This document shows, piece after piece, positions 45,760 through 56,800 of a stretch of 64,000 bases of DNA. Within the stretch, counting starts at the first letter, position 1, and every line of letters begins with the position of its first letter. The notes below the pieces were generated by a model, which ran no database searches, was not told the DNA's origin, and saw nothing but the letters and a program-made list of their open reading frames with translations. The DNA comes from Candidatus Marithrix sp. Canyon 246 (GTDB lineage Bacteria > Pseudomonadota > Gammaproteobacteria > Beggiatoales > Beggiatoaceae). Location of the stretch: the NCBI RefSeq assembly GCF_001723685.1, contig NZ_MCBX01000006.1, forward strand, positions 1-64,000. The letters are read 5' to 3'. The position numbers were made by a program, and so were the translations under genes.

Positions 45760-45821
45760 AAAAAGGATAGTGCCACAAATTTTATATGATTAGACAATTT
45801 ATTCGCAACTAATAACTACCC

Positions 45822-45960
45822 TTACTTCTTCACCAACTCAATTATCTCCTGAAGATAAGCAATTTCCTTATCCTTTTGCTCAATAATGAAATTAGCTTTT
45901 TCTAATTCGTGTTGGCATCTTGTTTGATCAATAGTATTATGGAAAGATTGTTCATTATGA
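45822..45960 (-). pseudogene. C-terminal relic of an XRE-family regulator
   Basis: The minus strand reads continuously into a TAA at the left end, with the coiled-coil tail HELEKANFIIEQKDKEIAYL and EIIELVKK, clearly the same as the C-terminus of the regulator at 48816-49223 (HELEKANLIIEQ..., IIELLKKQG). The DNA-binding part is gone. Confidence 0.7.
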
Positions 45961-48815: not shown

Positions 48816-49223
48816 CTATCCTTGCTTCTTTAGCAACTCAATTATATCCTTAAGATAAGCATTTTCCTTATCTTTTTGTTCAATCATTAACTTATTTTGT
48901 TCAATAATTAAATTAGCTTTTTCTAATTCATGTTGGCATTTTCTTTGGTCAATTGCATTATAGTGAGATTGCTGATAAAAAATAGAATCAGGCTGAAAAT
49001 TTTCTATAAAATTAAACACATTTTTATCATTTAAGCCCACCAATTTTTCCAACTCCACACCAAAAATTTCTGAAATTTTCTTTAATCGAGAAAGATTAAT
49101 ATCCACCTTACCCTGCTCAATCTTAGCATAGCCATTAAGACTCATCTCTAATTTTTCCGCCATTTGTTCTTGAGAAAAACTTTTGAATTGACGAATAAAT
49201 TTAATATTTTCATGCACCTCCAT
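48816..49223 (-). CDS. XRE-family transcriptional regulator with coiled-coil tail
   Basis: 135 residues from the ATG at 49223, which has GAGGATAT upstream; the frame extends further but without conserved sequence. Residues 3-60 form the Cro/CI helix-turn-helix (KFIRQFKSFSQEQMAEKLEM, then LNGYAKIEQGKVDINLSRLK), and the last 40 residues are a coiled coil (HELEKANLIIEQNKLMIEQK). The region upstream on the same strand encodes a HicB-like C-terminal scrap, so it may once have been part of a toxin-antitoxin operon. Confidence 0.8.
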   Translation of the reverse strand: MEVHENIKFIRQFKSFSQEQMAEKLEMSLNGYAKIEQGKVDINLSRLKKISEIFGVELEKLVGLNDKNVFNFIENFQPDSIFYQQSHYNAIDQRKCQHELEKANLIIEQNKLMIEQKDKENAYLKDIIELLKKQG

Positions 49224-49248
49224 AAATATATCCTCACAGTTGGTAAAA

Positions 49249-49410
49249 TTAATATTTATTAAATCTATCTGGTGGAATGATGATTGGTATTTGCTGTTTA
49301 TTATACTTTCGATAAATATAAAAGTCATTCTCCAAAGCCTTTGAAATAATCTTATCTTTTCCATCTTCACGTAACCCTTCTAAATGAAATTCAATAACTT
49401 CAGCTATTAA
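49249..49410 (-). pseudogene. HicB-like antitoxin, C-terminal scrap
   Basis: The minus strand reads IAEVIEFHLEGLREDGKD and on to PIIIPPDRFNKY before a stop, with a stop also just upstream and no start codon. The first part matches the end of HicB-family antitoxins (EAIEFHLEGLREDGE). It lies directly before the XRE regulator. Confidence 0.5.
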
Positions 49411-50059: not shown

Positions 50060-50293
50060 ATGAAAAAATATTTATTTTCCATATTAGTATTATTACTAAC
50101 TGATGTTACGCAGAGACGACAACTGATGAAAGGAAATGGGGCTTTAGCCCCGTTCATTACTGGTGAATTGCAGCTTCCACTTCCTAAAAAAGCACAACAG
50201 CGGCAACATTACGGGTTGCAAATAAAGTTGTTAAATTGTAGGGGTAAACCTTTATGGTTGCCCTTTTTGTGTAAGTATTTGTTGCTTTTTTAA
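50060..50293 (+). pseudogene. Signal-peptide start joined to repeat sequence
   Basis: ATG 50060 has CTAAGGAA upstream and begins MKKYLFSILVLLLT, a convincing signal peptide, but the rest of the 77-residue frame runs through non-coding repeat sequence, including the GGGGCTTTAGCCCC palindrome (50139-50152). It is probably the first few codons of a secreted protein whose remainder was lost. Confidence 0.4.
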
Positions 50294-50557
50294 AAGTGAT
50301 GAAATAAAAGAAAGATTATGGAATAATACTATTTCAGTAGGCGCAAACGCTGATAGTAAACGCGCTGTCGAATAAGTTTAGCAGTTACTTTGGTTTTAAA
50401 AACAACCTAGGCAACCTAACACAAATCACCTATATTGTAGGTGATTTATGATGAGTAATACTCTAACATACCCATAGTATAAGAACTATAAATATAGTTG
50501 ATTTCATTTTTAATTACAAAACCAATAATTTTATTATGTATTTAATGTAATTAAAAA
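50283..50557. repeat. Duplicated block A, left copy
   Basis: Nearly identical to 52201-52485 in the same orientation. The differences are mainly a different loop in the AATCACCT/AGGTGATT hairpin and single bases. It is non-coding and AT-rich, and it precedes the relic of the winged-helix gene just as the right copy precedes the intact gene. Confidence 0.85.
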
Positions 50558-50840
50558 AAACCTTGAATACAACAATAGTTTATCACTTGAGCAAAAAACT
50601 GAAATATTTAACAAATATCGCAGACAAAAAATTAATGATTGCCCTTATTGCGATACTACTGAAAAAATTGAGCGTTTACCTAGAAGAGCTGTAAAAATTT
50701 TAACTGCTAAACCGGGTTATGAGCAACCGGGTACCCAAGGTTTAACTCATATCAGTGAATTGAATGTTATAAATTCACTTCGAGAGAAGTTTTCTGAAAA
50801 GTTCGGTGATGAGCAATGTGATTTTGAGACTCCATTTTAA
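50556..50840 (+). pseudogene. C-terminal relic of the winged-helix initiator-like gene (left copy)
   Basis: Almost identical to the 3' part of the gene at 52676-53794 (from residue about 260), with an in-frame 57-base deletion that removes half of the Cys cluster. The N-terminal two thirds are absent: block A is joined directly to this fragment. The similarity continues past the stop through the gltB leader to 50939. Confidence 0.85.
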
Positions 50841-50939
50841 TTTAAACACCCATGACACAACCACACAACTAGAATATAATAAAAGACTTTTTCACCCACT
50901 TTTTTTGGAGGTTAGATGATGAGTCACAGTGCTTTGCCA
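50841..50939 (+). repeat. Duplicate of the gltB leader and first codons
   Basis: The sequence through the TTTGGAGG ribosome-binding site, ATGATG and the codons for SHSALP equals 53795-53893 before gltB. After GCTTTGCCA the similarity to gltB stops. It shows that the original duplication extended at least into gltB. Confidence 0.85.
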
Positions 50940-50969: not shown

Positions 50970-52002
50970 TTTATTAGTTTTTAGATAATTATCTATATAT
51001 TCAGTTACTTTTCTTTCTGTTAATTGATGACTTACATCGTCATGTATAATATCGTGTCTTCTTCTTAGAATTTCATTCAATTTGTTTTTATCATGTATTA
51101 AATTTAAATTTTTTGTTTATCTTTGCCTCATCTACACAAATCTGATAAAACTTATGAAGTTCAGATTTTACTTGTTGCATAATCTGTTGATTATATTTTT
51201 GTGGATGTTCTAACTTATTAGGCAATATATCTGAGTTATTTAAAAGGTATTTAAGTGAAGATAAACGTAAATGTAAAGATAAATTTTGGTAATTTTTATT
51301 AGAGATTTGAATTTTATATAGAAATTATTCTAAACTAACCACGCTTAAATTCAAAAACAAATCATGGTGTTGAATTTTACCTTCATTATTTTCTGTTCTT
51401 GCAAAGTCGATTAATATATTGACATCGTCAATAGTTTTAAAAAAATTATCAGTTGCATCAAGAAAATAAGACATTATTGATTTAATCGCTTTACCATATT
51501 AGAAATAATATTAGGATTGCTATTACGTCTAATTAAAACAATGTGCATTACACTTAAATTTATTAAACGTTTAGCTTGTGGTGGTAAGTCTTGAAATCGC
51601 ATTGATTCAAATTCTGTGATAATTTCAAGATTAGTTAGTTCATATTTATTTTTATAAAAGTTAAAAATCGCTAATATTCTTTGAATACCATCAACTACTA
51701 ACCATTTACCATCTTGTTGTTCTTTTAAATACAATAGCGGTATTGGAAAATTCATTAGAATAGATTTAATTAGTTTTGAAGCTTTTTCTGTTGTCCATAA
51801 TTTATTTGGAATTTCTAAGATAATCTGCTTTTCTTCAGTTAAACTTAGAATATACTCGATATTATAATCATAAGAACAAGTTTTTAAATTAAATTGTGGT
51901 TTTGATATGTGTTGAGTTTCTGTTGCAATTGCTTTTAAAATATCATTGTTTTGAGGTATATTATAGTTAGTTTGCGATTATTTTGTTGATAAATTCACTC
52001 AT
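50970..52002 (-). pseudogene. Broken DUF262 (GmrSD-type) gene
   Basis: The minus strand starts at ATG 52002 (MSEFINKIIAN), shifts frame near 51970, then reads NYNIPQNNDILKAIATET and LWTTEKASKLIKSILMNFPI. The DUF262 core follows (YLKEQQDGKWLVVDGIQRIL; FQDLPPQAKRLI), to a stop at 51474, with further similar-looking sequence in changed frames to about 50985. DUF262 proteins include ParB-like nucleases of GmrSD-type modification-dependent restriction. The frameshifts and stops mean it is no longer functional. Confidence 0.65.
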
Positions 52003-52010
52003 GAGTACAA

Positions 52011-52200
52011 AATTGAATTTTTTACCTATAAGGTCGATTTTAAAAAATTATTTCACAAACCATAATAAAATCAATGCTGGCTCCATTAAATTATGTCCTT
52101 TATCCGATAAAAAGCATTAATTTTAACATAAATGAATTAACAAGCAGTTGATGTATTTGTTGCTACAAAATGATATAAAAAAAGCAGTGATCTGGATTGG
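52011..52200. other. Gap without recognisable gene
   Basis: AT-rich sequence between the DUF262 relic and duplicated block A. It holds no ORF of note and no strong hairpin. The promoter of the relic may lie at its left end. Confidence 0.4.
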
Positions 52201-52485
52201 TGCTTTTTTAAAAGTGATGAAATAAAAGAAGGATTATGAAATAATACTATTTCAGTAGGCGCAAACGCTGATAGTAAACGCGCTGTCGAATAAGTTTAGC
52301 AGTTACTTTGGTTTTAAAAACAACCAAGGCAACCTAACACAAATCACCTAAAAAGTTTTCAAGACCAGGTGATTTATGATGAGTAATACTCTAACATACC
52401 CATAGTATAAGAACTATAAATATAGTTGATTTCATTTTTAATTACAAAACCAATAATTTGATTATGTATTTAATGTAATTAAAAA
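52201..52485. repeat. Duplicated block A, right copy
   Basis: Matches 50283-50557. It contains an AATCACCT...AGGTGATT hairpin near 52343-52376 and lies upstream of the intact initiator-like gene. Perhaps it is a control or replication region of the ancestral element. Confidence 0.85.
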
Positions 52486-52509
52486 TACTCACAATTGTTT
52501 TAGGCAATA

Positions 52510-52541
52510 AAAAACCCGCTTTATAACAGCGGGCTTTTTTA
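52510..52541. terminator. Rho-independent terminator
   Basis: AAAAACCCGCT-TTATAAC-AGCGGGCTTTTTT: a six-base GC stem (52515-52520 with 52528-52533) flanked by A and T runs, so it can act in both directions. No intact gene ends just before it; it may insulate the following gene. Confidence 0.75.
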
Positions 52542-52596
52542 AATCCTTTTACAATTTTTTTTAAACCTACGAGGCATCCATGTGAAAAATCACTTT

Positions 52597-52668
52597 ATTT
52601 CAATTAATTCAAATTGAATTATATCAAAAAGTGGTCAACATGTCTATGCCTCATTTCAATTAATTCAA
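52597..52668. repeat. Two 16-base direct repeats before the initiator-like gene
   Basis: ATTTCAATTAATTCAA occurs perfectly at 52597-52612 and 52653-52668, 56 bases apart, ending just before the ATG at 52676. The position and AT-richness would suit operator or initiator-binding sites. Absent from the left duplicate. Confidence 0.6.
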
Positions 52669-52675
52669 TTTTGAT

Positions 52676-53794
52676 ATGAGTATTAAGACCAACCAAAAAA
52701 AATTTTGGGCATATAATGATATTTTTGATGTTTTTGGTAGTGAGCTGAAGGCTTATAACCTTATAGTTTACCTATGTTTAATCCGACACGCTGACAGTAA
52801 AGGGCAATGTTACCCTTCATACAATTTGATTGCAAAAAAATGTGGAGTATCTCGCAGAACAGTTATAAATGCAATTAATAAGTTAATTGAATTAGATTTC
52901 ATTAGTTTATCAAAACGCAAGGTTAATAATGGTAGTTACACCTCCAATCTCTATACCATTAAAGAATTACCACATCATACTAATACAACTAAAGATGCTG
53001 TATCAGCACTTCAAGATCAGCATAACCCTAGTGCAGCAGATACACCACCCCTAGTGCAGGAGATGCACCACCCTAGTGCAGCAGATGCACCACCCCTAGT
53101 GCAGGAAATGCACCACCCTAGTGCAGGAGATGCACCCGAAGGACGGAAAACAGAAGGACAACTAAATTATAAGGACGACGAAACGAAGGACGGGCAAGCC
53201 CTAAATAACAAGGTTGATTTATCTGAATTAAAATCCCCAATATTTTTAAGTGAACAAACTCTAAAAGCTCTACATAAATTACCTGATAATAATAAAAAGC
53301 AAGAAGTACTTGATGTATTAGCCGCTTCTATGAAAAAAGGCACGATAAGAAAACCAGAAGCATATTTGCAAACACTTATACAACGCTCTTTAGATGGTGA
53401 CTTAACACCCCTTAATAATTCCATTCCTGAAAAAATTGATAGTAACTTTATTAAAAACCTTGAATACAACAATAGTTTATCACTTGAGCAAAAAACTGAA
53501 ATATTTAACAAATATCGCAGACAAAAAATTAATGATTGCCCTTATTGCGATACTACTGGTTATATAAGGTTTTTAGAGGAAAATGGTGATATGCATGGTA
53601 AAGTCTGTACCCATGAAAAAATTGAGCGTTTACCTAGAAGAGTTGTAAAAATTTTAACTGCTAAACCGGGTTATGAGCAACCGGGTACCCAAGGTTTAAC
53701 TCATATCAGTGAATTGAATGTTATAAATTCACTTCGAGAGAAGTTTTCTGAAAAGTTCGGTGATGAGCAATGTGATTTTGAGGCTCCATTTTAA
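52676..53794 (+). CDS. Winged-helix replication-initiator-like protein with internal iteron array
   Basis: 372 residues. The N-terminus is a HTH_36-type winged helix (CYPSYNLIAKKCGVSRRTVI, then NAINKLIELDFISLSK) as found in plasmid and phage replication proteins. Residues about 115-155 are a low-complexity stretch of a 15-residue repeat (HHPSAADAPPLVQEM). The middle is helical, and near residue 285 a CPYCDTTG...CTH cluster looks zinc-binding. It may be a primosome-loading or initiator protein of a former mobile element; I do not recognise the precise family. The left duplicate lost the DNA-binding half. Confidence 0.55.
   Translation: MSIKTNQKKFWAYNDIFDVFGSELKAYNLIVYLCLIRHADSKGQCYPSYNLIAKKCGVSRRTVINAINKLIELDFISLSKRKVNNGSYTSNLYTIKELPHHTNTTKDAVSALQDQHNPSAADTPPLVQEMHHPSAADAPPLVQEMHHPSAGDAPEGRKTEGQLNYKDDETKDGQALNNKVDLSELKSPIFLSEQTLKALHKLPDNNKKQEVLDVLAASMKKGTIRKPEAYLQTLIQRSLDGDLTPLNNSIPEKIDSNFIKNLEYNNSLSLEQKTEIFNKYRRQKINDCPYCDTTGYIRFLEENGDMHGKVCTHEKIERLPRRVVKILTAKPGYEQPGTQGLTHISELNVINSLREKFSEKFGDEQCDFEAPF
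53026..53138 (+). repeat. Five iteron-like repeats inside the coding sequence
   Basis: CCTAGTGCAG occurs at 53027, 53050, 53072, 53095 and 53117, i.e. at steps of 23, 22, 23 and 22 bases, each followed by a CAG/GAGATGCACCAC-like half. The alternating step means the same DNA unit is read in two frames (PSAAD... and LVQEM...), giving a 45-base, 15-residue super-repeat. Even spacing of about two helical turns is usual for initiator-binding iterons. Confidence 0.7.
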
Positions 53795-53869
53795 TTTAAA
53801 CACCCATGACACAACCACACAACTAGAATATAATAAAAGACTTTTTCACCCACTTTTTTTGGAGGTTAG

Positions 53870-56800
53870 ATGATGAGTCACAGTGCTTTGCCACCTAAGC
53901 AGGGTCTCTATGATCCTTGTTATGAACATGATGCTTGTGGTGTTGGCTTTATTGCTCATATCAAAGGTCATAAAAATCATAATATTATAATTCAGGGTTT
54001 GGAAATTCTTAAAAACATTACTCATCGTGGGGCTGTGGGGGCTGATCCTCTTGCTGGTGATGGTGCTGGTATCCTTATTCAAACGCCTGATGCCTTTTTA
54101 CGTGCTAATCTTGATATTAGTCTGCCGTCAGTAGGTGATTATGCGGTTGGTATGATCTTTTTGCCTCGTGATGAGCAAAAACGTGCCGCTTGTGAGGCTT
54201 TAATTGCTGATGTCATAGCCGCTGAAGGTCAAAAATTATTGGTTTGGCGTGATGTTCCTACTAATAATGATGTTATTGGTGAAAGTGTTAAAGTGATTGA
54301 GCCTGTTATTAAGCAGGTTTTTATCGCTAACGCTTGTGCTGATCAAGATGCTTTTGAACGCAAATTGTTTGTGATTCGTAAGGTCATTGAACATAAAGTA
54401 CGTAATGAGTTAGAATTGGATTATAGTCATTTTTATATTCCGTCTTTTTCTTCACGTACTTTATTGTATAAAGGAATGTTATTGGCTGATCAAGTTGGAG
54501 CTTATTTTCCTGACTTGTTAGATGAGCGCATGGTAACTTCCCTAGCATTAGTACATCAACGTTTTTCTACTAATACCTTTCCAACTTGGGATTTAGCTCA
54601 GCCTTTCCGCATGATTGCCCATAATGGTGAAATTAACACTGTACGCGGTAATATTAATTGGATGGCAGCTCGTCGTCATTCTATGGCTTCCGAGTTATTG
54701 GGAGATGACTTAGATAAATTATGGCCTTTAATTGCAGAAGGTCAATCAGATTCTGCCTGTTTTGATAATGCCTTAGAATTATTGCTTGCCGGTGGCTATT
54801 CTCTAGGGCAGGCAATGATGATATTGATTCCTGAAGCATGGGCTGGTAATCCTTTAATGGATGAAAAACGCCGCGCTTTTTATGAATATCATGCCGCTTT
54901 AATGGAACCGTGGGATGGTCCAGCCGCTGTTGCATTTACCGATGGTCGTCAAATTGGGGCTACTTTAGATCGAAATGGCTTACGTCCAGCGCGTTATTTA
55001 ATAACCAGTGATGATATTGTGGTTATGGCATCAGAAATGGGCGTTTTAGACATTCCTGAAGATAAAATCATTAAAAAATGGCGTTTGCAGCCCGGTAAAA
55101 TGTTCTTAATCGACACTGAAGAAGGGCGTATTATTGATGATGCAGAATTAAAAGGACAATTGTCAAATAGTCTGCCTTATCAACAGTGGTTAGATGAAAC
55201 TCAGATTATTTTAGAAAATCTACCATCTGAAGTTGCCGCAATGCCACCTAATAAGCAAACCTTATTAGATCGTCAACAAGCCTTTGGTTATACTCAAGAA
55301 GATTTAAAATGCTTTTTAATTCCAATGGTTGTAAGTGGGATAGATCCTTTAGGCTCTATGGGAATAGATTCGCCGATAGCGGTTTTATCAGATCGCCCAC
55401 GTTTATTGTTTGATTATTTTAAACAAAGTTTTGCCCAAGTTACTAATCCACCAATTGATCCAATTAGAGAAGAATTGGTGATGTCATTAGTATCTTTAAT
55501 TGGTCCACGTCCAAATTTATTGGGTTTAAATAAAGGTGACTTTTTACAAAAGCGGCTAGAAGTTGCTCAGCCGATATTAACTAATGTTGATTTGGAAAAA
55601 GTACGAGGTATTGAAACACGTACTAGCGGCGCATTTCGTACTAAAACTTTAAGCATGTGTTATGGTTCTGACAACATGGAATCAGCAGTTAACACCTTGT
55701 GCCAACAAGCTGAACGGGCTGTATTAGCTGGTAATAATATCTTAATATTGTCTGATCGTGGAGTAAATCGCGATTATATTCCAATACCTTCATTATTGGC
55801 TACTTCAGCGGTTCATCTTCACTTAATCAAACAAGGTTTGCGCACCGAATCTGGTTTAGTAGTTGAAACTGGTGAAACTCGTGAAGTTCAGCATTTTTGC
55901 CTATTAGCGGCTTATGGTGCAGAAGCGATTAATCCTTATTTAGCATTTGACAGCTTATTAGCAATTAGAAAGACTCTGCAATTAACTGAAGCTGAAATTC
56001 AACAACGCTACATTAAAGCAGTTAATAAAGGCATGTTAAAAGTCATGTCAAAAATGGGTATTTCTACTTATCAATCATATTGTGGTGCCCAAATATTTGA
56101 TGCAGTTGGACTTTCTGATGAATTCTTAGATCAATATTTCACTGGTACTAATTGTAAAACTTCAGGGATAGGCTTAGCAGAAGTCGCTGAAGAAACTGTA
56201 CGTAAACATAGTTTAGCTTTTGGTGATAATCCTATATATCGCAATGCCTTAGATGTTGGTGGTGAATATGCCTATCGTCTGCGTGGTGAAGAACATGTTT
56301 GGACACCTGAAACTATTGCTAAATTGCAACATGCAACTCGTAGCAATGATAGAAAACTATATGATGAATTTGCTAAAGAGATCAATGATAAAGCCTTAAA
56401 TTTACGCAGCTTCTTTGATTTTAAATTCGCTGAAGCAGTGCCATTAAACGAAGTAGAACCAGCCTCAGAAATTGTAAAACGCTTTGCAACTGGTGCCATG
56501 TCATTTGGTTCGATTTCTGAAGAAGCGCATACTACTTTAGCAATTGCTATGAATCGCCTTGGTGGTAAATCCAATACTGGTGAAGGTGGTGAAGAAGTTG
56601 AACGCTTTACCCCATTAGAAAATGGAGATTCAAAACGTTCTGCGATTAAACAAGTAGCATCTGGGCGTTTTGGTGTCACCGCTGAATATCTAGTAAATGC
56701 TGATGATATTCAAATTAAAATATCTCAAGGCGCAAAACCGGGCGAAGGTGGACAATTACCCGGACATAAAGTCAATGAAATCATTGCCAAAGTACGTCAT

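Follow-up and report, generated by a model that had tools for sequence, protein, structure and literature searches.

A stretch of 64,000 nucleotides from Candidatus Marithrix sp. Canyon 246 (contig NZ_MCBX01000006.1, positions 1 to 64,000; hereafter the window) contained a gene whose reading frame carries five closely spaced copies of one short sequence, raising the question of whether this repeat is kept for the peptide that it encodes or for the DNA itself, as a replication origin lying inside the gene of its own initiator. Comparison with relatives from phages, plasmids and whole genomes pointed to the DNA: the gene very probably encodes a replication initiator of the phage lambda O type, and the array would be the iteron half of its own origin, placed within the coding sequence.

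The gene (52676..53794, + strand) was an intact ORF of 372 codons. Its product matched the Pfam family HTH_36 at residues 23–76 (E 8e-18; codons at 52742..52903, + strand) and, in PHROG, several replication initiation families (best E 3e-19) as well as “replication initiation O-like” (best 2e-17). These profile matches place it among phage “replication initiation O-like” proteins with a winged helix (HTH_36), and the view of the initial annotation, made from the letters alone, that the element was not tied to a known family had to be amended. The same annotation had called the protein a winged-helix one, as was borne out by the HTH_36 match and by an AlphaFold model with a confident winged helix over residues 20–100 (blocks at pLDDT 93–96). 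In this model pLDDT was below 50 for residues 122–191, comprising the array-encoded segment and the stretch just after it. Because the model (mean pLDDT 58) was good for the winged helix only, fold matches outside that domain were left unused. Structural neighbours among viral proteins included “Bacteriophage lambda, GpO, N-terminal” and “replication protein O”, and a sequence search of PDB gave weak, generic winged-helix matches only, one of them to a chromosome replication initiation protein. In the recognition helix, SRRTVINAI, the third residue of SRRT (helix position +2) was Arg. Beyond the winged helix, a helical middle domain (about residues 190–245; 53243..53410, + strand), common to the paralogues, is a candidate helicase-loader contact, and the C-terminal part (53516..53791, + strand), in which no Pfam match was found, contained a CPYC...CTH pattern, a possible metal site. 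Residues 82–244, including the middle domain, weakly matched the STY4528-family pathogenicity-island replication protein (NF040582); the score was 34 bits and the cut-off 130, so that by this model the protein is not a member of that family.

The array (53026..53136, + strand) consisted of five exact CCCTAGTGCAG sites starting at 53026, 53049, 53071, 53094 and 53116, so that the start-to-start distances were 23/22/23/22 bp, just as first reported. Its onset was codon 117 of the gene. This 11-mer occurred five times in the 3.24-Mb genome, always within the array, and a reversed-pattern control occurred 0 times; the array scored 17, against a maximum of 2 among 20 codon-order shuffles of its own gene. 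TRF described it as a repeat with a unit of 45 bp in 2.5 copies (score 203, 95% match). The iterons, with the core GTGCAGGAGATGCAC, were inverted repeats of the form TAGTGCA-N5-TGCACCA (p 0.003 by column permutation), and 15-bp dyad cores (GTG-N9-CAC) lay at 53031–53045, 53054–53068, 53076–53090, 53099–53113 and 53121–53135 (+ strand). Owing to the alternating spacing, the unit is read in two frames, as PSAADA and as PLVQEM, in agreement with the frame alternation proposed in the initial annotation. A classical iteron plasmid of the Rep_3 (RepE) type was also considered and rejected: no Rep_3 match was found, and the iterons were dyad-symmetric and located in the gene.

Upstream of the gene, a 19-bp direct repeat pair of ATTTCAATTAATTCAA was found at 52597..52615 and 52653..52671 (+ strand), identical over 16 bp (52597–52612 and 52653–52668), which confirmed the 16-base pair noticed initially, and agreeing at 18/19 positions over 19 bp. 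None of 500 dinucleotide shuffles gave more than 15/19, and the exact 16-mer had no further occurrence in the genome. The pair stops 5–8 bp upstream of the ATG at 52676 and is a candidate operator or a second AT-rich element; as an operator, it may act on the initiator gene. A promoter-like sequence on the minus strand (TAGACA-17-TATAAT) was overlapped by the same pair (52597–52671). An intrinsic-terminator-like hairpin upstream of the gene (52515..52533, + strand) would shield the initiator gene from upstream transcription. Downstream of the array the AT content was 57% over the first 80 bp and 75% over the next 80 bp, the flank near the array being weakly AT-rich, and an AT-rich stretch (75%) at 53221..53300 (+ strand) is a candidate unwinding region.

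Origins within initiator genes are well established, as phage lambda, Stx phages and SPP1 oriL show. The O dimers of lambda bind to iterons that are almost perfect inverted repeats, and strand opening takes place in an A+T-rich region of 40 bp beside them (PMC5043065). Two extra iterons in Stx phages lengthen O by 13 residues and are required for replication of a derived plasmid (PMC7466680). The oriL of SPP1 lies inside initiator gene 38, with an AT-rich element present (PMC6316719). The locus in the window resembled ori-lambda in having a winged-helix-type O-like initiator, inverted-repeat iterons within the gene and on the same coding strand, an array onset at codon 117 (the annotated lambda iterons extend from codon 117 to about 144, with spacing 20/24/23) and a spacing of 20–24 bp. 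It differed from lambda in its iteron letters, which are unrelated (ATCCCTCAAAACGAG in lambda), in a weaker AT tract beside the iterons where that of lambda is strong, and in having no P gene after the initiator. SPP1 gp38 likewise has origin sites within the initiator gene together with an AT-rich element, but its sites are direct repeats by description (PMC6316719).

Three relatives resembled the window in the sites themselves or in their order. The orf39 replication protein of phage SfV and the O protein of PseuP_222 had cores (GTGCAGGAGATTCAC and GTGCAGCAGATTCAC, respectively) near-identical to that of the window, arrays just 3′ of the winged helix and a recognition helix of the type S-[KR]-R-[ST], although the protein identity was about 27% over the matched part; the SfV array was spaced 24/21/21/24, in a single frame, with a SAGDS-type peptide throughout. 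An HTH protein of Bacillus smithii plasmid pDSM4216 (WP_048624568), 40% identical to the window protein in its N-terminal half, had five CCCTAGTG-type iterons in the same order, 23/22/23/22, occupying codons 112–142. It was unlike the window protein in its half-site (GTGAA, not GTGCA), in a shorter C-terminal part and in being encoded on a stand-alone 12.5-kb plasmid. An in-gene array of CCCTAGTG sites on B. smithii plasmid NZ_CP012025.1 (L069, 3199–4071), spaced like that of the window, was unannotated and is probably the origin of that plasmid.

For a wider survey, ORFs matching the winged-helix profile were drawn from phage, plasmid, viral-contig and whole-genome collections and were reduced to 80 non-redundant relatives. 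Most of these were selected by the winged helix or a PHROG profile alone, and for a minority (e.g. that on the B. smithii plasmid) the query was the full-length protein with its array peptide; a single-protein search of the viral-contig collection gave no relatives. A significant array was located just 3′ of the winged-helix codons in 46 of the 80, with a median onset 9.5 codons past the winged helix, and the detector used found none in 34, including two paralogues of the same family (L016 and L020). Nine of 160 control ORFs passed the array test, eight of them from O-like gene loci, mostly as antisense or overlapping frames, so that at most one (L139) was unexplained. The pitch averaged 22.16 bp (141 spacings, sd 1.46). 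Dyad symmetry at p<0.05 was found in 32 of the 41 arrays with at least three sites, the window array among them, as measured over the longer of two test intervals, the shorter having missed the symmetry of the window array itself. Sites of the form GTG-N9-CAC were present in 15 of the 41, including those of the enterobacterial phage SfV, the B. smithii plasmid and a Synergistaceae genome.

Site type went with the sequence of the recognition helix. Arg stood at helix position +2 in all 14 initiators with GTG-N9-CAC sites, as against 8 of 24 others (Fisher 3e-5, a value that ignores kinship among initiators, the 80 relatives not being phylogenetically independent). This correlation, drawn from sequence comparison, is the nearest support here for a protein that would read the array in its own gene. 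A Thermaerobacter protein had SKDS in its recognition helix and GCCGC sites. Across the family the DNA 3′ of the arrays showed an AT excess, of +10.6 points over the first 30 bp and, for the best 40-bp segment within 150 bp, of 0.162 vs 0.109 ± 0.009. Relatives were also found on stand-alone plasmids, one of them adjoining a ParB gene. Two more O-like genes, L010 (G018:C181) and L013 (G032:C259), were seen in large genomes of the same family as the window, with near-perfect palindromic arrays (GTGACGAATCGTCAC and GTGACGAAAAGTCAC) in 22/23 alternation. A search of the openly accessible literature for a paper surveying in-gene iterons throughout the O-like family found none, though one may exist.

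Could selection act on the peptide, the 45-bp unit being a 15-residue linker repeat grown by slippage and the DNA identity a by-product? The best tandem unit of the window array is 45 bp, or 15 codons, the B. smithii peptide is similar and in the same register, and of 95 two-step spacings 69 were divisible by three, where 35% would be expected were successive spacings independent. Against this, the core is read in differing frames within the array, more than half of all spacings (79 of 141, not multiples of 3) shift the frame, the sites have a dyad symmetry that a peptide does not need, and the array-encoded segment is predicted to be disordered; the use of two frames would also be left by a stop codon in the third. 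DNA rather than peptide appears to be kept, because SfV reads a near-identical core (GTGCAGGAGATTCAC, against GTGCAGGAGATGCAC in the window) as another peptide, as do mEp phages, and because B. smithii shares the array spacing. Selection on the peptide is therefore judged highly improbable. Loss of the DNA sites with retention of the peptide repeat, the outcome that the initial annotation had named as contrary to its proposal, was the opposite of what was seen: in relatives the site core, pitch and symmetry were kept while frame and peptide changed. By the frame shifts, constant pitch, dyads, recurring GTG-N9-CAC and helix correlation in this comparison, the DNA sites and not the peptide are conserved.

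Granted that the DNA is what matters, the array might still be no origin but an operator through which the protein represses transcription across its gene. A winged-helix protein on in-gene sites would block transcription too, another pair of repeats is located at the promoter, and the Foldseek matches include many repressors; but the neighbours in PHROG and among viral structures are proteins of replication, lambda and Stx phages, which were studied experimentally, use such a layout as an origin (PMC5043065, PMC7466680), the family-wide AT excess 3′ of the arrays fits unwinding, and stand-alone plasmids bear the gene with no other initiator recognised among the features examined. We consider autoregulation in place of an origin to have very little probability. 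Action at the RNA level, with GTGCA-N5-TGCAC forming mRNA hairpins as in a regulator-binding array, is the least probable of all: a 5-bp stem is possible at each site, but the array RNA folded no better than shuffles (z -1.5), no Rfam family reached the gathering score in the array region, the centre letters of the sites vary freely between relatives, and the recognition helix correlates with site type.

The reading of the gene as an O-type initiator with its own iterons suggests the following course of events. Protein dimers would bind each 15-bp inverted repeat, TAGTGCA-N5-TGCACCA, via the N-terminal winged helix, and five such dimers, about 22.5 bp apart, would form a nucleoprotein wrap able to unwind the AT-rich DNA 3′ of the array; the C-terminal half of the protein may then recruit the helicase, and the segment encoded by the array would serve as a flexible linker in which the peptide sequence is of little consequence. 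The lambda-like layout put forward in the initial annotation was strongly supported by comparison (codon position, pitch, dyads, shared core, DNA over peptide), by which gene family, site position, pitch, symmetry and conservation of DNA over peptide were established; binding, unwinding, helicase recruitment and origin activity are inferred.

A DNA pitch of 22–23 bp combined with two usable frames would give the 23/22 alternation. The unit in the window contains CCCTAG, which one frame reads as CCC TAG, a stop; two frames are therefore open, in keeping with the alternation. A pitch of about 22.5 bp can be attained by 23/22 in two frames or, as in SfV, by a mix of 21 and 24 in one, and the pitch was equal in single-frame (22.12 bp) and multi-frame (22.19 bp) arrays (p 0.68). 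All six spacings were 21 or 24 in an array with two closed frames (L092), and in a Thermaerobacter plasmid the sole site in the closed frame bore CGG instead of TAG. The stop codon accounts for the alternation only in part, since a preference for two frames was seen also where no frame is closed (8 of 14 such arrays); a further contribution probably comes from the duplication of 45-bp double units.

Origins of this kind were known before; of greater interest are the regularities shared across phyla. The lambda design, with the origin inside the reading frame of the initiator, recurs across O-like initiators of phages, plasmids and chromosomes, and since constant pitch and site symmetry outlast changes of the peptide, unannotated origins could be found simply from sequence. 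With a recognition helix and its candidate binding site in one gene, these loci form a set for learning protein-DNA specificity, and the 23/22 alternation shows plainly how a DNA-binding array can come to terms with the genetic code.

Directly downstream of the window initiator the next gene was gltB and not a P-type loader gene as in a lambdoid O–P replication module; the missing loader lowers the reading as a lambdoid prophage module and leaves that as an O-type initiator with its origin intact. No loader, DnaB, DnaC, helicase or integrase gene was recognised among the neighbours examined. A truncated second copy (50279..50939, + strand), without winged helix and array, was found 2 kb upstream of the gene. 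It comprised the upstream region of the gene joined to the last third of the gene, the pre-gltB spacer and the first gltB bases, and was 94–100% identical to 52197–53893 with two internal deletions, one of which ended at the short repeat ATTAAAAA, suggesting recent duplication and decay. With no adjoining loader and a truncated second copy, the locus is probably a stranded relic, in which initiator and candidate origin are intact in sequence. The proposal that these are the remains of a self-replicating element is thus plausible from the truncated duplicate and from the lack of a neighbouring loader or recognised integrase, but does not fit the gene itself, which is intact. Standing before gltB without replication partners, the chromosomal copy is probably silent, or active only under some conditions.

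In the sister genome, the only other of the genus searched, the DNA preceding gltB was split over two contigs: the pre-gltB sequence at one contig end (L085, G001:C8) ended in an apparent O-like C-terminus, and the start of another contig (L086, G001:C1) contained pre-gltB spacer, gltB 5′ fragments and initiator-upstream-like sequence. Taken with the duplicate in the window, these contig ends indicate that the pre-gltB slot was used more than once, and the DNA ahead of gltB may be a hot spot for elements of the O-like kind. Because this slot seems to be filled by the end of an O-like gene in the sister species too, the locus might be no dead relic but either a replicator that resides in the chromosome and is active under some conditions or an element able to excise; that this holds, together with a cross-phylum rule of fixed 22-bp pitch, stop-limited frames and half-sites readable from the recognition helix, seems unlikely.

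Two minor features were seen nearby. Between the two copies of the initiator gene, 51474–51755 (− strand) encoded a fragment of a GmrSD-type restriction protein (PF03235, 31 bits, just below the cut-off), which is a degraded defence gene. Farther upstream, two stretches of ~80 bp were repeated with 85% identity (48816–48971 and 45816–45950) around a gene for an HTH_19 regulator (48816–49370, − strand).
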